Made by a program: the position numbers and the translations under genes
Origin: Thermoanaerobaculia bacterium
Lineage (GTDB): Bacteria; Acidobacteriota; Thermoanaerobaculia; Gp7-AA8
Assembly: GCA_017883235.1 (NCBI GenBank)
Contig: JADGNY010000027.1
Coordinates: forward strand, 1 to 56,839
DNA: 56,839 nucleotides
Direction of reading: 5' to 3'
In this document: positions 2,677-54,588 of the stretch, piece after piece
Layout: the number at the start of each line of letters is the position of its first letter
Numbering within the stretch: position 1 is the first letter of the stretch
The notes under the pieces: model-generated
Database searches by the model: none
What the model was told of the DNA's origin: nothing
What the model saw: the letters and a program-made list of their open reading frames with translations, nothing else

Positions 2677-2763
2677 AGGAGTCTGCGCGGCAGAACGATG
2701 GAGCGAAGACGGTGGCCGAGCCTTGGGCAACCAGCGCAGCCGGCCGTGCCGGCCTAGGGCCGC
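2677..2763 (+). repeat. dispersed repeat family A, copy 2
   Basis: Begins AGGAGTCTGCGCGG, continues with GAGCGAAGACGGTGGCC, then GAGCCTTGGGCAACCAGCGC and the palindromic GCCGGCCGTGCCGGC. Compare 1828-1914 and 56553-56612. It lies between the small membrane protein and the citrate synthase gene. Confidence 0.8.
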
Positions 2764-2772
2764 GCATCAATG

Positions 2773-2797
2773 TTGTCAACGTTGATTGCATGATCAA
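2773..2797 (+). promoter_or_regulatory. overlapping palindromes upstream of HTH-citrate synthase
   Basis: Two dyads overlap: a perfect TCAACGTTGA (2776-2785) and TTGAT-N6-ATCAA (2782-2797). A weak TTGTCA -35-like hexamer starts at 2773. The site is 26-50 bases upstream of ATG 2823 and is AT-rich against a GC-rich background. An operator is likely; autoregulation by the gene's own HTH domain is an inference. Confidence 0.45.
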
Positions 2798-2822
2798 TAT
2801 CCGGGTGGTAGCGTATGCGCCG

Positions 2823-4028
2823 ATGGTCACGTGGCTTTCATCGGATGACGCATCCAAGCGCCTCGGCGTCAGCCGGACGACGCTCTATGCGTACGTCAGC
2901 CGCGGACTGGTGCGCTCCTCACCGTCGCCCGGCAACACACACCAGCGCCGGTATGCCGCCGAGGACGTCGAACGGCTGCGCAGCCGGAGCGAACAGCGCC
3001 GCGATCCGGGAAAGACCGCCGAGCGGGCTCTCCATTGGGGTGTGCCGGTGCTCGAGTCATCGATCACGCTGATCGACTCGGACCGGCTCTACTATCGCGG
3101 CTACGACGCCTGCGAGCTCGCGCGCACCCGCAGCGTGGAAGAAGTGGCGGCACTGCTCTGGACGGGCGGTTTCGACGCCGGCCTCTTCGCCGGCACCCCG
3201 CTGCACGTCGTCGCCGGCGGAAAGAGCGCCGAGGATCTGCCGTTCGTCAGCCGCGCGCAGTCGATGCTGCCGCTCGTCGGCGCGCGCGACCCTCTCGCCT
3301 ACGACCTGCGCCCGCGCGCCGTGGCCCAGACCGGCTGGCGCATCGTCAATCTGCTGACAAGCGTGGCGGCCGAATCAGCGGAGCTCGAAGAGTCGATCGA
3401 GGAGACGCTGCACAAGCGCTGGACTCCGAAGATGCCGCACGCCGTGGAACTGTTGCGCGCCGCGCTGATCCTCTGCGCCGACCACGAGCTGAATGTCTCT
3501 TCCTTCACGGCCCGCTGCGTCGCCTCGGCGGGTTCGAGTCCCTATGCCGTCGTCGTCGCCGGACTGACGGCGATCGAGGGGGCGAAGCACGGCGGGATGA
3601 GCGAGAAGGTCGAATCGATGTTTGCCGACCTTCGCCGCACTCGCGACGTGCGCAAGGCGCTGGCCGACCGCCGTCGCCGGCACGAGCCGATCCACGGCTT
3701 CGGACATCGTCTTTACGCCGGCGGTGACCCGCGCGCCGCGTTGCTGATGGAACTGCTGGCGAAACGTTTCGCCAAATCGCCGGAGGTCGTCTTCGCCCGC
3801 AACCTGGCCAAGGCCGGAGAAGAGCTCACCGGCGACAAACCGACGATCGATTTTGCCCTCGTGGTCCTGGCCCGGGCACTCAAGCTCGATCGTGGCACGG
3901 CGCTGACGCTCTTCGCCCTCGGCCGCAGCATCGGCTGGATCGGTCACGCCATCGAGCAATACGCGAAGGACGAGATGATCCGGCCGAGAGCACGGTACGT
4001 GGGAGATGGGCCGAAAACCTCTTCCTGA
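2823..4028 (+). CDS. citrate synthase-family enzyme with N-terminal MerR/excisionase-type HTH
   Basis: 401 residues. Residues 1-55 form a DNA-binding-like domain (WLSSDDASKRLGVSRTTLYAYVSRGL, with a RRYAAEDVERL wing), as in MerR/excisionase proteins. From about residue 65 the citrate synthase fold follows: SSITLIDSDRLYYRGYD, the active-site histidine in AKHGG (about residue 256), GFGHRLYAGGDPRA (about 293-306), and a TIDFALV aspartate near 342. These match the His-His-Asp triad of citrate and 2-methylcitrate synthases (acetyl-CoA or propionyl-CoA plus oxaloacetate). ATG 2823 is preferred because the frame upstream runs through repeat family A. Such HTH fusions are known in databases, but whether the domain binds DNA is unsettled. 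Citrate versus methylcitrate activity cannot be told apart here. Confidence 0.85.
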   Translation: MVTWLSSDDASKRLGVSRTTLYAYVSRGLVRSSPSPGNTHQRRYAAEDVERLRSRSEQRRDPGKTAERALHWGVPVLESSITLIDSDRLYYRGYDACELARTRSVEEVAALLWTGGFDAGLFAGTPLHVVAGGKSAEDLPFVSRAQSMLPLVGARDPLAYDLRPRAVAQTGWRIVNLLTSVAAESAELEESIEETLHKRWTPKMPHAVELLRAALILCADHELNVSSFTARCVASAGSSPYAVVVAGLTAIEGAKHGGMSEKVESMFADLRRTRDVRKALADRRRRHEPIHGFGHRLYAGGDPRAALLMELLAKRFAKSPEVVFARNLAKAGEELTGDKPTIDFALVVLARALKLDRGTALTLFALGRSIGWIGHAIEQYAKDEMIRPRARYVGDGPKTSS

Positions 4029-13696: not shown

Positions 13697-13802
13697 TCAA
13701 TGTTGAATGTTCAATGTTGAATGTTGAATGTTGAATGCGGCCCGAGAGACGGGCACGCGACCTCATTCAACATTGAACATTCAACATTCAACATTCAACA
13801 TT
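13697..13802. repeat. TTGAATG heptamer hairpin
   Basis: TGAATGT-type units (TTGAATG, TTCAATG) run from 13697 to 13737. Their complements (CATTCAA, CATTGAA) run from 13764 to 13802, around a GC-rich loop. The hairpin lies right upstream of the kinase start (13681) and within the divergent promoter region of the metalloprotease. AT-rich, unlike the surroundings. Confidence 0.85.
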
Positions 13803-20855: not shown

Positions 20856-21130
20856 TTGACCTCAACCGAGCGTTCGTCAACCTCAACGGAGCGTTCGTCG
20901 ACCTCACGCGAGCATTCGTTGACCTCGCGCGAGCGTTCGTTGACCTCACCCGAGCGTTCGTCGACCTCACGCGAGCATTCGTTGACCTCACGCGAGCATT
21001 CGTTCAACCTCAACTGAGCGTTCGTTGACCTCACGCGAGCATTCGTTGACCTCACCCGAGCGTTCGTCGACCTCAACCGAGCGTTCGTTAACCTCGACCG
21101 AGCGGTCGTTTGACCTCAACCGAGCCTTCG
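20856..21130. repeat. 21-bp tandem array 1 (13 units)
   Basis: Thirteen head-to-tail units with consensus TTGACCTCAMSCGAGCRTTCG. Eleven are 21 bp; units 8 (21003-21024) and 13 (21109-21130) are 22 bp. Each unit carries a CTC-NNNN-GAG dyad; the four centre bases vary (AACC, ACGC, GCGC, ACCC, GACC). Reading frames cross it on both strands (DLTRAFV or STNARVR heptads), but the 22-bp units shift them. Not CRISPR: units are contiguous and lack unique spacers. Confidence 0.9.
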
Positions 21131-42715: not shown

Positions 42716-43877
42716 GCTCGAACGAAGCGAGCGTTTCCACGTGATGTGTGTTGGGGAAGAGGTCGAGCAGGTCGAGCGAAGCGAGCCGCCAGCCAGACGC
42801 GATCAGCCGGCTCGCGTCACGCGCAAACGTTACCGGATCACACGCCAGGAAGCAAACCATCTCTTTCGCGCGCGTGGCGATGGCGTCGATGACGTTGCGC
42901 CGCGCGCCGCTGCGCGGCGGATCGAGGAACACGAAGTCCGCGCGCGGCATCCGCTCCACCCACCACTCCACCGGCGCGTGAACGAGCGTCACATTGTCCG
43001 GTACGTTTTGCTTCGCACATTCGTGCGCTGCTTCCGCCCCCTCGACCGCGGTCACGCGTTCGAAGATCTCCGCCAGAGGCCGGCTGAAGAAACCGACGCC
43101 GGAGTAGAGGTCGATGGCGGTTTTGCGGGAGTCGGGGCTCGGGGGTCGGGGGTCGGAGAACGCAGGAGCAGCGATTGGCTCCGACTCCCGACCCCCGACT
43201 CCCGACACCCGATTCGCCAACTTCATCACCAACTTCCGCATCGTCGCCAGCAGGTGCCGATTGACCTGAAAGAAAGCGTCGGTCGTGACGTGGTAGCCGT
43301 CGATGATCATCCCGCCCTCGGTCACGAGCTTCCCGTCGACTTCCCATGTCTCGCCATCGCGCGGTTCTTCGCGTGTCCGCAGCCCAACCACCTCGCACTC
43401 CGGAGGAAGTTGCACCACGTCATTCGTCCGCATCGCGTAGAAACCGGCCTTCCCGCCGCCGCGATGCAGCCTGCTCCGCAGACGGTAATTCAGCGGCGAC
43501 GGATGAATGACGATCGGAGGCAACGTGGCGGGATCGATCTTCCCGATGCGCCGCAGAGACTCGGTAAGGATCCGCTGCTTCGCTTCGAGTTGCCTGTCGA
43601 GCCGCAGCGCCGTCCAATCGCAGCCTCCGCACTCGTTCGCCACCGGACACGGCATGGCCCGCCGGAACGGACTCGGCTCGATGAGGCGCACCAGATCGGC
43701 GTGCGCGAAGCCCTTCTTCACCTCCAGCAGCCGCACCACGACGACGTCGCCGGGATAGACGTTCGTGGCGAAGATCGGAAAGCCGTCCACGCGTGCCATG
43801 GCCGCGCCACCCGCCACCAGTTCCGTCGGAGTGATCGTGATTTCGTCGCCAGCGAGCATGGCCTGCGAGGATGTCAT
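42705..43877 (-). CDS. RlmD/TrmA-type RNA 5-methyluridine methyltransferase, with in-frame repeat
   Basis: 390 residues. N-terminal TRAM-like part (ITPTELVAGGAAMARVDGFP), the iron-sulfur motif (CPVANECGGCDW: cysteines spaced C-x5-C-x2-C), FFQVNRHLL, the SAM motif AIDLYSGVGFFSRPLA, FVFLDPPRSGARRNV, and the catalytic CDPVTFARDASRL. These define the 23S rRNA/tRNA m5U methyltransferase family. Residues about 222-250 are not normal: DNA 43128-43211 is a dispersed Pro/Gly-coding repeat that was accepted in frame between FFQVN...MKLAN and AIDLYSG. First gene of the operon with comEC. Confidence 0.92.
   Translation of the reverse strand: MTSSQAMLAGDEITITPTELVAGGAAMARVDGFPIFATNVYPGDVVVVRLLEVKKGFAHADLVRLIEPSPFRRAMPCPVANECGGCDWTALRLDRQLEAKQRILTESLRRIGKIDPATLPPIVIHPSPLNYRLRSRLHRGGGKAGFYAMRTNDVVQLPPECEVVGLRTREEPRDGETWEVDGKLVTEGGMIIDGYHVTTDAFFQVNRHLLATMRKLVMKLANRVSGVGGRESEPIAAPAFSDPRPPSPDSRKTAIDLYSGVGFFSRPLAEIFERVTAVEGAEAAHECAKQNVPDNVTLVHAPVEWWVERMPRADFVFLDPPRSGARRNVIDAIATRAKEMVCFLACDPVTFARDASRLIASGWRLASLDLLDLFPNTHHVETLASFERAQ
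43128..43211 (-). repeat. hairpin repeat (family H) inside the RNA methyltransferase gene
   Basis: GGAGTCGGGGCTCGGGGGTCGG and CCGACTCCCGACCCCCGACT-type arms (43128-43156 and 43181-43211) around AGAACGCAGGAGCAGCGATT. 84 bases equals 28 codons, so the frame is kept. The same CGGGGGTCGG / CCGACCCCCG arms form an intergenic repeat at 54477-54581. Confidence 0.85.
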
Positions 43878-46187: not shown

Positions 46188-48812
46188 TCAATTCACCGTT
46201 ACCGGCTCCGGCTCGAGTGACAGCTCGATCTTCCCATCCTCGCCGACGTTGACGAATACCGTGTCGCCCGGCTTGAACTTTCCCTCCAGCAGTTTCATCG
46301 CCAGCGGGTCGATGATCAGCTTCTGCAGCGCGCGCTTGAGCGGCCGTGCGCCGAAGGCAGGGTCGTAGCCTTCTTTCGCCAGCTGCTCCTTGGCGTGGTC
46401 GCTGATCTCGATCGACAGGCCGCGGTCGCCGATCATCTTCGCCAGCCGCTTGAGCTGGATCTCGATGATCCGCTTGATGTGCTGCATGTCGAGCGCGTGG
46501 AAGATGATCACGTCGTCGATCCGGTTGAGAAACTCCGGGCGGAAGTGCTTGTGCAGCTCCTCCTCGACCTTCCGATCCATCTCCGCTTCCTGAGGCGGCG
46601 TCTGCATCGACTTCTGATAGTCGAAGATGTACTGCGCGCCGACGTTCGAGGTCATGATGATGACGGTGTTCTTGAAGTTGACCTCGCGCCCTTTCGAATC
46701 GGTCAGCCGGCCATCGTCGAGGATCTGCAACATGATGTTGAAGACCTCCGGATGGGCCTTCTCGATCTCATCGAACAGCAACACCGCGTAGGGCCGTCGG
46801 CGGATGGCCTCCGTCAGTTGGCCTCCCTCCTCATAGCCGACGTAGCCCGGCGGCGCACCGATCAGACGGGCCACCGCATGCCGCTCCATGTACTCCGACA
46901 TGTCGATGCGCACCATGGCGTTTTCGTCGTCGAAGAGAAACTCCGCCAGCGCGCGCGCCAGCTCGGTCTTTCCAACGCCGGTCGGCCCCATGAAGATGAA
47001 TGAGCCGATGGGCCGGTTCGGATCCTTGAGACCCGCGCGCGAGCGGCGCACGGCGTTGGAGACGGCGGTGACGGCTTCCTCCTGCCCGATGACGCGCAGC
47101 TTGAGGTTGTCCTCCATCCGCACGAGCTTCTGGATCTCCGACTCCATCATTCGCGTCACCGGCACGCCGGTCCACTTGGAGACGATCTCGGCGATATCTT
47201 CGTCGGTCACCTCCTCGCGAAGGAGCGCCCCGCCCTTCTGCATCTCGGCCAGACGTGCCGAGGAGGTCTCGAGGTCGCGATTGATCTGCGGAAGCGTGCC
47301 GTAGCGCAGCTCGGCCGCCTTGTTGAGCTCACCCTGCCGTTCGGCGGCATTGGCCGCTTCGCGCGTCTCCTCGAGCTTCTTCTTCAGCTCATTGATCTGC
47401 GTGATGACGCCCTTCTCGTTCTCCCACTGGGTCCGCAGGGTACTGATCTTCTCCTGCAGCTCGCCGATCTCGCTCTCGATCTCCCCGAGGCGATGCTTCG
47501 AGACGGGATTGTCCTCGCGGGAGAGAGCCTGCTTCTCGATCTGAAGCTGCGTCATCCGCCGTGTCAGCTCGTCGATCTCCTGCGGCATCGACGTCAGCTC
47601 GATGCGCAACTTCGACGCTGCCTCGTCGACGAGATCGATGGCCTTGTCCGGCAGGAACCGGTCCGTGATGTAACGATGCGACAGCATCGCCGCCGCCACG
47701 ACGGCCGAGTCCTGAATCTTCACACCGTGATGGACCTCGTAACGCTCCTTGAGCCCGCGCAGGATGGCGATCGTGTCTTCGACCGTCGGCTCTCCGACCA
47801 AGACCGGCTGGAAGCGCCGCTCCAGCGCCGCATCCTTTTCGATGTGCTTCTGGTATTCGTTGAGCGTCGTCGCGCCGATCGCACGCAGCTCGCCGCGCGC
47901 CAGCGCGGGCTTGAGCATGTTCGAGGCATCCATCGCCCCTTCCGCGGCTCCGGCGCCGATGAGCGTGTGCAGCTCGTCGATGAAAAGGATCACATTCCCG
48001 TCGCTCTCCTCGACTTCCTTGATGACAGCTTTCAGACGGTCTTCGAACTCGCCGCGGTACTTCGCGCCGGCGATCATCGCGCCGAGGTCGAGCGAAACCA
48101 CGCGTTTGTTCTTCAGCCCCTCGGGGACATCCCCTTCGATGACGCGCCGAGCCAGACCCTCGACGATCGCGGTCTTGCCGACGCCGGGCTCGCCGATCAG
48201 GACGGGATTGTTCTTCGTCCGCCGCGACAGCACCTGGATCACGCGGCGGATCTCTTCATCGCGGCCGATGACCGGATCGAGCTTGCCGCGCCGGGCCAGC
48301 TCGGTGAGATCGCGCGCGTAGCGCTGCAGGGCCTGATATTTGTCTTCGGGATTCTGATCGGTGACGCGCTGCGTGCCGCGGACAGACTGCAGAGCCTTGA
48401 GCAGCGCATCGGGCACGGCGCCATGCCGCGCCAGGATCTTCGCCGCGGTCGCCTCTTTCGTCTGCGCGATGGCGAGCAGGAAGTGCTCTGTCGAAACGTA
48501 TTCGTCATTGAACTGCGTCGCCACGCTGAAGGCGGCGTCGAAGACTTTTCTCAGAGTCGAGCCCACCATCGGCTCCGCCGACGCCCCTCCCACGCGCGAA
48601 TACCTGGCGACCTCCGCGGCGGTCTCCGTCTCGATCTGACCAGCCTGCAAACCCAGCTTGGTCAGGATCGGAACGACGATCCCGCCCTCCTGCCGGAGTA
48701 GCGCGATGAGAAGGTGCTCGGGCGTGACCTCCGGGTTCCCCGCACCACGCGCAAGGTTCTGCGCCTCGGCCACTGCTTCCTGGGCTTTGACCGTAAGCTT
48801 GTTGAAATTCAT
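46188..48812 (-). CDS. clpB: ATP-dependent disaggregase ClpB
   Basis: 874 residues, normal length. N-domain (about 1-145), first AAA+ with [15 protein letters not shown] near 207 and a [10 protein letters not shown] Walker B, the coiled-coil M-domain (about 400-525, with [18 protein letters not shown]), second AAA+ with [17 protein letters not shown] near 608 and [20 protein letters not shown], and a C-terminal domain. ClpB with DnaK rescues aggregated proteins. The start ATG 48812 has an AGGTAATG-type upstream region. The leader holds TTGAG/CTCAA dyads (48826-48855) and a 21-bp array lies 236 bases upstream, both possibly regulatory. Confidence 0.98.
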
Positions 48813-48825
48813 ATCATTACCTCAC

Positions 48826-48855
48826 ATTGAGTCAATTTGGCTCACATCTCAAAAC
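48826..48855 (-). promoter_or_regulatory. clpB leader dyads
   Basis: A perfect ATTGA-G-TCAAT palindrome (48826-48836) starts 14 bases before the clpB ATG. A further TTTTGAG (minus strand, 48849-48855) and TGTGAG (48843-48847) share TGAG. HspR-type HAIR operators (CTTGAGT-N7-ACTCAAG) have the same half-sites but other spacing. An operator is plausible, unproved. Confidence 0.45.
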
Positions 48856-49047
48856 CGGCAAGAATTACCACACATTCCGAGGTGCAACAGAAGAGCCCGG
48901 GCCTACTCCTTCTCGAGCGTAGAGCGGGCAACCCCCCGGCAAACGTCACGAGGCAACCGGCCACCTTCGACACCCGGCAATCCGCACGCCGGGCCCCTCG
49001 GGCAACCCGTCCGCCGCTTCGTCCCGTGATGATGTACTCAAACCCTT
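48856..49047. other. spacer between clpB leader and array
   Basis: 192 bases with no gene. It contains GGCAACCCCCCGGCAAACGT and GGGCAACCCGTCCGCCGCT, weakly repetitive CGGGCAACC motifs. No clear promoter -35/-10 pair was found for clpB on the minus strand. Confidence 0.4.
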
Positions 49048-49340
49048 TGAGTCGCGACTCATAACCTGTGAGTCGGTACTCAACCGGTTTGAGTCCGTAT
49101 TCACATCATTTGAGTCGGTACTCAAGTTCGGTGAGTCGGTACTCAAGTTCGGTGAGTCGGGACTCAAATTTTGTGAGTCCGGACTCACATTTTTTGAATC
49201 GGTACTCACATTCTTTGAGTCCGTACTCAAGTTTTTGAGTCGCGACTCACATTTTTTGAGTCCGGACTCAAATTCTGTGAGTCGGTACTCATGTTTTTTG
49301 AGTACGGACTCATATTTTTTGAGTCGGTACTCAAATTCGA
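49048..49340. repeat. 21-bp tandem array 2 (14 units of TGAGT-N4-ACTCA)
   Basis: Fourteen units in a row; thirteen are 21 bp, unit 9 (49216-49235) is 20 bp. Every unit begins with TGAGT-NNNN-ACTCA, perfect in most units (TGAATC in unit 8, ATTCA in unit 3), with centres CGCG, CGGT, CCGT, CCGG and others. The 7-base spacers are T-rich in the second half (CATTTTT). The minus and plus frames are open in heptads (STDSxNL), but the 20-bp unit breaks both, so it is not coding. It lies between clpB and the antitoxin gene at 49561. Confidence 0.95.
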
Positions 49341-49560
49341 TGAATCGAAGGGAGGTATCGGAGAGTCCGAATCACCTGATTTTGGTAGAAAACGGGCCAA
49401 AACCGCGGAGTTGCGCTCTCTCGGAGATCACTTATTCCAGGAGGACCTATTCCACGCAGGGCGGCGAGGAATCTTCGCGGGTCTGGAAGGATTGTTTCGG
49501 ACCTGTCCGGAGCGGGATTGCAGCCAGGTAACGGGCGGTTTGTCTTAAAATGAAGGTGCC

Positions 49561-49785
49561 ATGAGCATAGTTCTGAACGCTAAGTACGATGATGCGACGC
49601 ATAGTCTGCGTCTGCCCGAGCCGCTGGAGGGTTTTGCCGATCAGGAGAGCGTTTCGGTCATCGTCGATCACGCCGAGGCGAAGAGGCCGTGGAGTGAGCT
49701 CGAGGGCATCCTTAAAGGCGAAAACGCCGAGAGCTTCTCACGAGCGATCGAGGAAGCCTTTCCGATCGAGCCTGTCAAACAGTGA
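49561..49785 (+). CDS. antitoxin (DUF104/AF2212-like), module 1
   Basis: 74 residues: MSIVLNAKYDDATHSLRLPE, PLEGFADQESVSVIVDH, then RPWSELEGILKG and IEEAFPIEP. The beta N-terminus plus a short helix is typical of DUF104 antitoxins. AAGGTG lies before the ATG. Its stop shares GTGA with the next gene, so the toxin is translated from the same message. A near copy with the same gene order is at 52305. Confidence 0.8.
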   Translation: MSIVLNAKYDDATHSLRLPEPLEGFADQESVSVIVDHAEAKRPWSELEGILKGENAESFSRAIEEAFPIEPVKQ

Positions 49786-50180
49786 TCGAACGGCTCGCGC
49801 TCGACACCAGTGCAGCGGTGGATTACATCCGCGAAGACCGGCTATCTCCGCCTCAAATCAACGCAGCAAAGGTGGTCGTCATCCCGCTGACGGTCGTCGG
49901 CGAGCTTTTCCACGGCGCCTCGTGCAGCGCCCTACCTGACGAAAGTGGTGCAATCGTCGAAAGTATCATCGAGAGGTGGAAGCCGCTGCTTCCCAACGTG
50001 GCAACAGCACGCGTCTACGGCGAGATTCGCACCGCACTATTTCGGACTACCAAAAACCTCAGCGCGTCGAGGGTGAACGATTTATGGATCGCCGCGTTGT
50101 GCATCCAGTATGGCTTCTCCCTCCTCACGAATGACCGCGGTTTCGACAACGTCGCCGGCCTGACAGTCATCCATTGGTAA
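49782..50180 (+). CDS. PIN-domain (VapC-like) toxin, module 1
   Basis: 132 residues from GTG 49782, overlapping the antitoxin by four bases. PIN motifs: LALDTSAAVDYI (first Asp), VVGELFHGA (Glu), NDLWIAALCIQYG (Asp) and LLTNDRGFDNVAGL (final Asp). These four acidic residues bind Mg for RNA cleavage, often of initiator or other tRNAs. The C-terminus ends LTVIHW. With the gene before it, a VapBC-like toxin-antitoxin module. Confidence 0.92.
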   Translation: MIERLALDTSAAVDYIREDRLSPPQINAAKVVVIPLTVVGELFHGASCSALPDESGAIVESIIERWKPLLPNVATARVYGEIRTALFRTTKNLSASRVNDLWIAALCIQYGFSLLTNDRGFDNVAGLTVIHW

Positions 50181-50226: not shown

Positions 50227-52275
50227 GTGAACGGGAACAACCGCCGCGATCTCTTTCTCGTCACATTCTCCATCCTCTCGCTCGAACTGGCCGTCATCCG
50301 CTGGATGGCGCAACAGATCACGCTCTTCGCTTACCTGGGAAGTGTCCTCCTGATCGGAGCCTTTCTCGGCATGGGCCTCGGCGTCGCTCTCGGACGCAGA
50401 CGGCCCGGGCTTTTCGGTCTCGCTCTGCCGGCGCTGGCCGTCCTCTCTGCCGTACTCGCCTTCTCGGAGAAACTGCACATCCTGCACACCCGTTTCCCGG
50501 GACGTGCTGTGGCGATGTGGGGGATGGACGGGGCGACGAGCTTCGCCTCCAGCCTGGCCATCATCGTCGCTCTCTTTGCAGCGGTCGTGATCGTCTTCCT
50601 ACTGGCCGGGACACGTGTCGGCGAGATCTTCGCGAGCTCGGAAGCACTCGACGCCTACTCGATTGACCTCGCGGGCTCGTTCGCCGGCGTGGTGGCCATG
50701 GCCATCGTTTCCTCCGCACAGACTCCGCCGCCGGTCTGGTTCGCGCTCGGTGGCATTCCGCTGGCGTGGGTGTCGCGCCGTTGGAGCAGTTGGGTGGCGC
50801 TTGGTGCGTTGCTCCTCTTCACGACTCTTTCGATCCGAGGGGCGATTTTTTCACCGTATTACCGCATCGACCTCGACCGTGCCAACGACGTGACCGGCGC
50901 ACCGATCCGCCTTTCCGTGAACCGCGATTTCCACCAGTACGTGCACGATTTCTCATCGCGGCGTCTCAACGATCCGGGGTTGCCAGCCGGCGTCCGAGCG
51001 AACCTCCGGTCCGCCGAGCTGACCTATCGCCTTCCCTTCGCGCTGGCACCCCACCACGACAGCGCCCTGGTGGTTGGTGCCGGAACCGGAAACGACGTCG
51101 CCGCCGCTCTGCGTCAGGGATTCGGAGAGGTTGTCTCCGTCGACATCGATCCTCGGATCATCGAGATCGGCAAGGCGCTCCATCCCGAACGGCCTTATGA
51201 CAATCCCCGCACCGTCCCCGTCGTAAACGATGCGCGCGCCTACTTCGAAAGGACCGACAAGCAGTTCGACGTGGTCGACTTCGGTCTCCTCGACTCACAC
51301 GCCGTCTTTTCGGCCATGTCGTCGCTGCGGCTCGATAACTACGTCTACACAGTGGAGGCCATGCGCTCGGCGTGGCGTCACGTACGGACGCCGGGACTGA
51401 TGAGCGTCAGTTTCTCGATCGGCGACCGCGAATGGCTGTCCGACCGGCTCTACAAGATCGTCCATGACGCGACGGGAGTCGATCCCGTGATCGTTCCTCA
51501 CGCGATTCAGCGCGGCCGCTTCTACATCGTCACGAAAGGAATCGAGCCGCGCGAACTTGCCGCCCGTGCCCGGCTCCGCACACTGCCGCCCCCCGATACC
51601 GAGCGGGTGGAGTCAGCGACGGACGACTGGCCGTTTCTCTATCTCAACCCGGGAGAAATCCCTGTCGGCTATATCGCCATGATTGCGGCCATCCTGGTAA
51701 TCGGAGTGGCTGGCAGCCGAGTGGCATTCGGCGCCGAGATGTTCCACGGCCAGGCGTTCAACCCGCTGCTGTTTGTCATGGGAGCCGCGTTTCTGCTCAT
51801 CGAGACGCGAAGTGTCACCGACCTTTCCCTGCTCTTCGGGTCGACGTGGGCCGTCAACGCAGCGGTCTTCGCCGGCATGCTCGCGGTCGTGTTCGTCGCG
51901 AATGCCGTCGTGCGGCGAGGCCGGGCACCCAACATTTCGGTCATCTTCGGTCTACTCTTCGCGTCGTTGCTGTTGAATTACTTTCTCCGCCCCGATCAGC
52001 TCCTGACGCTTCCCGTTGCGTTGCGCTCGATTCTGGGACCGCTCCTGGCCGCGCTCCCCATCGGATTCGCCGGCATCATCTTTTCCACCATCTTTGCGCG
52101 ATCCTCAAACCCCAGCGCCGCGCTCGGCTCGAATCTGCTGGGCGCGGTCGTCGGTGGATGCCTCGAGTTCCTCTCGATGGCCACCGGCCTCCGCGCGCTC
52201 ACGCTGCTCGCACTCGTCTTTTACCTCCTTGCCCTTCTGCTGTACCGCCGGACACATGGGATTGAAGCCGCCTAG
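50227..52275 (+). CDS. membrane-embedded spermidine-synthase-like protein
   Basis: 682 residues from a GTG at 50227. An N-terminal block of about six membrane helices (LELAVIRWMAQQITLFAYLG onwards), then a soluble SAM-dependent methyltransferase/spermidine synthase-like domain (about 235-470: ALVVGAGTGNDVAAALRQG, VVSVDIDPRIIEIGKALHP, FDVVDFGLLDS), then a second block of helices (480-680). The motif E-L/IxxxRxxxP at the start and the D-I-D-P loop fit the polyamine synthase fold, but the residues that bind putrescine are not clear. It is bracketed by the two toxin modules. Confidence 0.8.
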   Translation: MNGNNRRDLFLVTFSILSLELAVIRWMAQQITLFAYLGSVLLIGAFLGMGLGVALGRRRPGLFGLALPALAVLSAVLAFSEKLHILHTRFPGRAVAMWGMDGATSFASSLAIIVALFAAVVIVFLLAGTRVGEIFASSEALDAYSIDLAGSFAGVVAMAIVSSAQTPPPVWFALGGIPLAWVSRRWSSWVALGALLLFTTLSIRGAIFSPYYRIDLDRANDVTGAPIRLSVNRDFHQYVHDFSSRRLNDPGLPAGVRANLRSAELTYRLPFALAPHHDSALVVGAGTGNDVAAALRQGFGEVVSVDIDPRIIEIGKALHPERPYDNPRTVPVVNDARAYFERTDKQFDVVDFGLLDSHAVFSAMSSLRLDNYVYTVEAMRSAWRHVRTPGLMSVSFSIGDREWLSDRLYKIVHDATGVDPVIVPHAIQRGRFYIVTKGIEPRELAARARLRTLPPPDTERVESATDDWPFLYLNPGEIPVGYIAMIAAILVIGVAGSRVAFGAEMFHGQAFNPLLFVMGAAFLLIETRSVTDLSLLFGSTWAVNAAVFAGMLAVVFVANAVVRRGRAPNISVIFGLLFASLLLNYFLRPDQLLTLPVALRSILGPLLAALPIGFAGIIFSTIFARSSNPSAALGSNLLGAVVGGCLEFLSMATGLRALTLLALVFYLLALLLYRRTHGIEAA

Positions 52276-52304
52276 AATGACGGTTGTCGTAGACTGAGGT
52301 GCAC

Positions 52305-52529
52305 ATGAGCAAGGTACTCAACGCTGAATACGACGACGCGACGTGCAGTCTGCGTCTGCTCGAACCACTCGAAGGCTTTGCCGATCGCGAGAGGGTGTCG
52401 GTTATCGTTGATCACGCCGAGGCGAAGAGGCCGTGGAGCGATCTTCGCGGATTGCTCTCCGGCGAAGATGGCGAGAAGTTCGCTCGAGCAATCGACGAAG
52501 CGTTTCCAATCGAGCCCATCAAGAAGTGA
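52305..52529 (+). CDS. antitoxin (DUF104/AF2212-like), module 2
   Basis: 74 residues from ATG 52305, preceded by GAGG; a GTG 6 bases upstream is less likely by comparison with module 1. MSKVLNAEYDDATCSLRLLE, PLEGFADRERVSVIVDH, RPWSDLRGLLSGEDG and AIDEAFPIEPIKK align throughout with the antitoxin at 49561 (about 65-70 % identical by eye). Its stop overlaps the next start (GTGA). Confidence 0.8.
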   Translation: MSKVLNAEYDDATCSLRLLEPLEGFADRERVSVIVDHAEAKRPWSDLRGLLSGEDGEKFARAIDEAFPIEPIKK

Positions 52530-52924
52530 TCGAACGACTCGCTGTCGACGCCAACGCCGTCATCGATTACATCCGACTCGATCGCGAGTACTCGCCGGAG
52601 CTCGATTCCGCGAAGACGGTCTTTGTGCCGCTGACTGTCATCGGTGAGCTGTTCTATGGCGCGTCGTGTAGTGATCGCCCTGACCACCATCGCACGATCA
52701 TCGAGAAGGTGATCAAACGCTGGCCGCCGCTGGTTCCTGACCTGGAAACGTCACGCGTATATGGCGAGATCCGCGCCAGCGCGGCACGAAAGGCAGTATC
52801 AATAACCGCATCGAAGACAAACGATCTGTGGATCGCGGCACTTTGCATTCAGCATGAGCTGCCACTACTTACCAACGACGGCGGATTCGACCGCATCGCC
52901 GGCCTGACCGTCATCCACTGGTAA
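52526..52924 (+). CDS. PIN-domain (VapC-like) toxin, module 2
   Basis: 132 residues from GTG 52526. PIN motifs LAVDANAVIDYI, VIGELFYGA, TNDLWIAALCIQHE and LLTNDGGFDRIAGL, ending LTVIHW as in module 1. All four acidic residues are kept. Two such modules in 3.4 kb on the same strand point to duplication around the gene at 50227, or to two insertions of a related module. Confidence 0.92.
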   Translation: MIERLAVDANAVIDYIRLDREYSPELDSAKTVFVPLTVIGELFYGASCSDRPDHHRTIIEKVIKRWPPLVPDLETSRVYGEIRASAARKAVSITASKTNDLWIAALCIQHELPLLTNDGGFDRIAGLTVIHW

Positions 52925-54474: not shown

Positions 54475-54476
54475 CT

Positions 54477-54581
54477 CGGGTGTCGGTTGTCGGGGGTCGG
54501 GGGTCGTAGAATCTGGAGTGCAAATCTTGCATTCACACGTCTTCCGACCCCCGACCCCCGACCCCCGACCCCCGACACCCG
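54477..54581. repeat. hairpin repeat family H, intergenic copy
   Basis: CGGGTGTCGGTTGTCGGGGG at the left, CCGACCCCCGACACCCG at the right, around AGAATCTGGAGTGCAAATC and TTGCATTCACACGTC. Left arm 54477-54507, right arm about 54543-54581. It fills the space between the fumarase beta gene and the AspA-like gene; the same arms occur inside the methyltransferase gene at 43128-43211. Confidence 0.88.
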
Positions 54582-54588
54582 AACAACC

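Follow-up and report, generated by a model that had tools for sequence, protein, structure and literature searches.

A phased dyad array beside clpB as the possible core of a dispersed, satellite-bearing intergenic element in one genus of Thermoanaerobaculia

The DNA considered here, a stretch of 56,839 nucleotides from a Thermoanaerobaculia bacterium (the window), carries a row of short palindromes upstream of clpB, and the question that this locus raises is whether the row belongs to the control of that gene, as an earlier note on the sequence had supposed, or to something of wider distribution. The array itself is real: TGAGT-N4-ACTCA occurs 12 times without mismatch at positions 49048-49333, compared to a mean of 0.01 and a maximum of 1 in 100 dinucleotide shuffles of the window. 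The count of fourteen units given previously stands in part, inasmuch as 12 are exact, whereas two carry one mismatch each (right arm ATTCA in the unit at 49090, left arm TGAAT in the unit at 49195), and a degenerate fifteenth unit, with two mismatches, extends the array on the left to 49027. Thirteen of the 14 steps between units are 21 bp long, the one from 49216 to 49236 being 20 bp, and the reported distance of 236 bases to clpB is correct when taken from the first unit named in the note to start-codon base 48812. The features of the region are collected in Table 1.

Table 1. The dyad array of the window, its flanks, and neighboring features (positions in the window)
Feature	Position	Strand	Basis
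Dyad array, 15 units (12 exact)	49027..49333	+	Pattern count, copy comparison
Left flank, diverged	48944..49026	+	Common to other copies; flank alignment
Right flank, with block TGATTTTGGTAGAAAAC and end TTATTCC	49334..49438	+	Eight-copy alignment
HAIR-like dyad at clpB start, apart from the element	48828..48844	-	Window TGAGT-N7-GCTCA
clpB, neighbor only	46188..48812	-	Pfam Clp_N, AAA, AAA_2, ClpB_D2-small
Small ORF (74 aa) and PIN-domain protein, neighbors only	49561..50180	+	Pfam PIN (second protein)

The link to heat shock is tempting. The HAIR operator of HspR consists of the half-sites TGAGT and ACTCA, in inverted order, with seven bases between them. The 12 exact sites of the array have the same letters in the same order, as was noticed before, and genes for HspR-like MerR proteins are present in G000, the genome of the window (6.92 Mb in 246 contigs), as well as in two sister genomes of the same genus, G001 and G002 (the protein of G001, the sole one scored, reaches 96.1 bits, below the NCBIfam cut-off of 105). 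All this would fit a stress-control region of clpB, and perhaps of the PIN-domain pair on the other side, bound by HspR. However, all 15 units of the window have the N4 spacing and none has N7, the seven bases that do occur, between units, separating half-sites in everted order; and, whereas HAIR operators are expected at chaperone genes, the arrays run to 15-18 units and mostly have no heat-shock gene nearby, with only one of the eight copies described below adjoining clpB. The clpB genes of both sister genomes, the products of which are 93% identical to that of the window, have no array upstream, an outcome that the note itself had named as speaking against its proposal. Moreover, clpB has a separate HAIR-like site, the related dyad of its leader that had been remarked upon previously: TGAGT-N7-ACTCA lies directly before the start codon, without mismatch in the two sister genomes and with a single one in the window. 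Given that exact TTGAGT-N7-ACTCA is missing genome-wide from G000, the clpB site of this genome is an imperfect HAIR, and we infer from these motifs that clpB has an ordinary HAIR-type site that is independent of the array. Thus, an HspR array was rejected on the spacing and a clpB control region on the positions of the eight copies and on both sister clpB loci, and we regard this reading as highly improbable.

What the array belongs to becomes apparent from its copies. When 561 bp of the region were used as the query against the three genomes of the genus, the search recovered two full copies in G000 and six in G002 (contigs C1, C35, C42, C82, C92, and C100), along with weaker partial matches in both genomes, but no copy in G001; among 100 genomes of the class, the window's own included, the paired pattern is present in G000 and G002 only. 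The 25 exact sites of G000 fall in three places, namely, 12 in the window, 12 in contig C107, and one in contig C123, where a two-unit remnant remains. This remnant (locus L017, 1993-2154) lies near a 113-bp stretch that is 97% identical to the end of a 260-aa gene neighboring the C107 array, so that the locus is perhaps a deletion copy of the one on C107. The homologous stretches extend over some 460-600 bp and consist of a left flank, 15-18 dyads at the 21-bp step (n = 8 copies), and a right flank, both flanks being common to all eight copies in the alignment. Pairwise matches extend beyond the array by about 40-120 bp on its left side and by 75-125 bp on its right side; for example, window positions 48944-49405 match another copy (L036) at 75% in BLAST. 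Within the right flank, a block around TGATTTTGG-AGAAAAC hardly varies, and the terminal TTATTCC is found in seven of the eight copies, the other one having TATTCC. Array length varies between copies by whole units, the exceptions being single-base steps in two of them.

Two loci show the element to be present or absent between sister genomes. At clpB, it is found in G000 and is missing from G001 and G002. At the C82 locus of G002, the flanking matches are 639 bp apart in G002 and 4 bp apart in G000 or, in the comparison with G001, 731 bp and 14 bp apart, respectively; besides the element, the extra DNA comprises approximately 100-200 bp that do not belong to it, including a short repeat that is present in G000, too. 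At the locus of the gamma-glutamyltransferase and ribose-5-phosphate isomerase genes (ggt-rpiA), the window genome carries other DNA, and a clean empty site is therefore not available. Inspection by eye of the flank alignment and of the empty site revealed neither terminal inverted repeats nor a target duplication, and the ends of the element are not sharp. Judged by their spacers, which are 7 bp long and partly common between copies rather than longer and unique, the arrays do not resemble CRISPR either.

The genes around the copies differ from one to the next. In a survey of 12 arrays, eight of this type and four of related types in G002, with a simple ORF and G+C test, the flanking genes were divergent in four cases, convergent in three, tandem in four, and unclear in one; the low-scoring ORFs that the test placed across three of the 12 arrays (C42, C23, and C91) are regarded as spurious. 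By Pfam matches, the neighbors of the array of the window include clpB and the gene for a PIN-domain protein, those of the C1 copy the gamma-glutamyltransferase and isomerase genes, those of the C35 copy the genes for a chloride channel and a lactamase-rhodanese protein, and those of the C82 copy the genes for a flavoprotein and an ABC-2 transporter, whereas a nuclease-phosphoesterase protein is encoded next to the C92 copy (locus L093) and a PCMT methyltransferase next to the C100 copy. The C107 and C42 copies share a neighbor, a protein of about 260 aa with no match in Pfam or NCBIfam. Likewise, the 74-aa product of the small ORF beside the window array matches no family; together with the PIN-domain protein, it likely forms a toxin-antitoxin pair. 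This pair is duplicated within the window (49514-50180 and 52258-52924, 71% identical), the two copies flanking the gene for a membrane protein of 682 aa that shows a weak match to methyltransferases. Elsewhere in the window, seven-base tandem repeats at 13699-13802, 43126-43212, and 54476-54582 are arranged in two runs of opposite orientation that form long inverted repeats, and positions 2712-4028 encode a citrate-synthase-like protein with a match to the MerR HTH family near the N-terminus.

With the eight copies aligned over 336 array columns, it is possible to ask which letters have been kept. The mean pairwise difference is 0.067 in the half-sites, 0.194 in the N4 center, and 0.308 in the N7 spacer, and amounts to 0.328 in the left flank and 0.251 in the right one, so that spacers and flanks have diverged 4-5 times as much as the half-sites (0.25-0.33 vs 0.067). 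The permutation p value for half-sites versus spacers, 5e-5, treats the columns as independent and is a guide only, the copies being related and the columns not independent; moreover, eight non-independent copies from two genomes are few for such a test. Any misplacement of units would raise the difference computed for spacers; a similar level is seen, however, in the flanks. Between copies, spacers differ by 0.309 when units in the same place are compared and by 0.594 when they come from other places (0.066 and 0.088, respectively, for half-sites), that is, the order of the spacers is kept, implying that homogenization is weak and does not explain the fixed half-sites. The phasing that the note had claimed is borne out by these copies as well: 121 of the 123 steps are exactly 21 bp although the spacers drift, the exceptions being the 20-bp step of the window copy and a 22-bp step in the C100 copy of G002, and the letters of the dyads are conserved. 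The unit is not fully symmetric, with C at position 6 in 114 of 131 units and T at position 9 in 90 of 131. Signs of sequence conservation at the dyads of the element are clear.

Conservation of a palindrome could also reflect RNA or DNA structure, the array being a row of small hairpins in a structured transcript or a cruciform. The folding energies of both strands indeed beat those of shuffles (z -9.6 and -12.7), as those of any palindrome array must. However, in the 131 units, no compensatory changes are seen in the arms, the number of standard pairs at each of the five arm positions stays within 1.5 of the expectation under independence, and bases beyond the 5-bp arms pair no more often than by chance; this absence of matched changes favors a double-stranded site that is recognized letter by letter over hairpins. 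With no Rfam family near its gathering score and no covariation, an RNA element was rejected, and we consider hairpins of either kind very unlikely. A repeat encoding seven residues per unit is even harder to credit and can be given next to no weight. The step is a multiple of three, and in every one of the eight copies a frame runs through the array and near flanks with at most one stop, which is in part because the repeat lacks stops in most frames; nevertheless, the 20- and 22-bp steps break the frame, and no single codon position evolves fast (divergence 0.184, 0.205, and 0.126), on which grounds coding was rejected, the open frames notwithstanding.

The element has to be considered, then, in the light of what is reported of satellites in prokaryotes, defined as at least four tandem repeats of 10-200 nt (PMC6749651). 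With 15-18 units of 21 bp in each of eight copies, the arrays fall within this definition, and their differing contexts, together with the 20- and 22-bp steps in two of the copies, place them with the dispersed non-coding families. In the available part of that paper, Subirana and Messeguer (2019) describe dispersed non-coding families of long repeats as rare, giving Leptospira interrogans and Methanocella conradii as examples, and name one case of a dispersed short-repeat satellite, Chloroflexus aurantiacus; the passages on palindromes in this part concern CRISPR only. The element is tandem, non-coding, and scattered in the genome like these satellites but, unlike those described there, consists of dyads with conserved half-sites and has conserved flanks. 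The main rival to a protein-binding function is, accordingly, a satellite without any, in which slippage made the units, recombination or transposition spread the element, and neutral or selfish persistence accounts for the rest. Restriction to the genus and absence from one sister genome (G001), the inconstant gene context, the shifts of array length by whole units, and the many unrelated 21-bp arrays of the same genus are all compatible with this explanation, which we consider a serious possibility, although short of an even chance, given that half-sites diverge so much more slowly than spacers and flanks while the order of units is kept, and that the step is so nearly invariant.

The other arrays of the genus, with units of about 21 bp that are unrelated to the dyads, present another facet of the story. 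In G002, several of them have at their end a related block, ATCGATTTTGGAA or TGATTTTGGAA; to the eye, this resemblance points to a common origin of the ends. The proposition that the dyad geometry is shared by all 21-bp arrays of the genus held only partly: among 18 arrays, nine have 7 or 8 of the 9 central pairs, p < 0.05 (uncorrected) is reached by five, and the rest are at chance level. The window holds a second array at 20856-21130, with 13 units of 21 bp (TTGACCTCACCCGAGCGTTCG), which has three further long relatives and several partial ones in G000, some with the flank TTCACCATTATTGGTGA, and none that were found in the two sister genomes. In another genus of the family, about 28 units of 21 bp with the dyad TGAGGTC-N4-GACCTCA occupy positions 555-1145 of locus L154 (contig C29 of G009).

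Beyond the genus, a scan of the GTDB species collection returned 14 stretches, six of which are in Thermoanaerobaculia bacterium Chersky.9_17 (corresponding to G002); of the eight in other lineages, six hold two units in register. A Prevotellaceae contig from the scan has four units, two of them exact, and a Bacteroidetes contig (L088, CAIMUP010000101.1) has seven in 21-bp steps, four of them exact, at the contig end (5705-5844), the left arms in this case alternating between TGAGT and TGGCT. Among 2.9 million viral contigs, a single one carries three exact dyads in 21-bp steps; from its flanks, read by eye, it is taken as unrelated. At the sensitivity of blastn, neither the 72,556 plasmid records nor the 50,697 phage records contained a match to the element, and a plasmid or phage origin was rejected.

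In four Desulfobacter records and one proteobacterial metagenome-assembled genome, the same TGAGT-N4-ACTCA stands twice, at the same 21-bp step, before a TetR-like gene. Pfam TetR_N was confirmed at L081, L084, and L087, where the fetched stretch holds the full gene; at L076 and L083, the gene start alone is in view and reads as TetR-family. These loci hint at a TetR protein as the binder of the dyads, although they have a single pair at a single promoter, with an operator role deduced from position, whereas the genus has a long array. The recognition helices of the two TetR types found there differ by eye, no TetR gene was identified beside the arrays of the genus, and a search of the genus for TetR candidates gave weak hits only, none of them outstanding. 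Equal sites in a row bound by one oligomerizing DNA-binding protein are known for KfrA of plasmid RA3, although there the sites are five 9-bp repeats at one plasmid promoter, with letters unrelated to the array, in the portion of the paper available (PMC7783346); the TGAGT letters in that text belong to primers, and this lead was set aside as a generic likeness. Within openly available papers and the terms used, no description of an array of this kind was found.

To us, the chances appear about even that the array is the core of a dispersed, genus-restricted, satellite-bearing intergenic element, the dyads of which are kept by a putative dimeric DNA-binding protein. Under this scenario, a non-coding element multiplied within one genus of Thermoanaerobaculia; a sequence-specific protein of the HTH type would bind each 14-bp dyad, its operator, as one dimer; the 21-bp step, equal to two helical turns, would put all dimers on one face of the helix, so that 15-18 of them could line up into a compact nucleoprotein patch; and this patch might act on the chromosome, by anchoring, by organization, or by titration of its own regulator. 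The neighboring genes being divergent at some copies and convergent or tandem at others, a chromosomal role of such a patch is more likely than one at a single promoter. Support for this scenario comes from the eight copies with common flanks in two genomes, the empty sites at clpB and C82, the slow divergence of half-sites with the order of spacers kept, the independence of changes in the two arms, the nearly invariant step, and the dyad pairs at TetR genes of other lineages, with their identical step. Counting against it are the failure to find a binding protein or an outstanding TetR candidate, the other 21-bp arrays of the genus with their unrelated units and mixed results in the dyad test, and the lack of the array in G001, where, consequently, it is not essential.

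A bolder proposal, which we put forward as speculative and rather unlikely to hold in full, is that the arrays are chromosomal docking sites, spread by the small element, of an undescribed DNA-binding protein, 15-18 dimers of which would sit on one helix face, whereas sister families of arrays would have kept the 21-bp step and the related ends but changed the letters of recognition. If true, the genus would have evolved within itself a device comparable to a centromere or an insulator. Taken together, these observations correct a tempting link to heat-shock control and add to the scattered non-coding satellite families that, in the available part of the survey cited above (PMC6749651), are called rare in prokaryotes. 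With the sites conserved, the spacers not, and the step fixed at two turns, it becomes directly testable whether a bacterial satellite can have a function.
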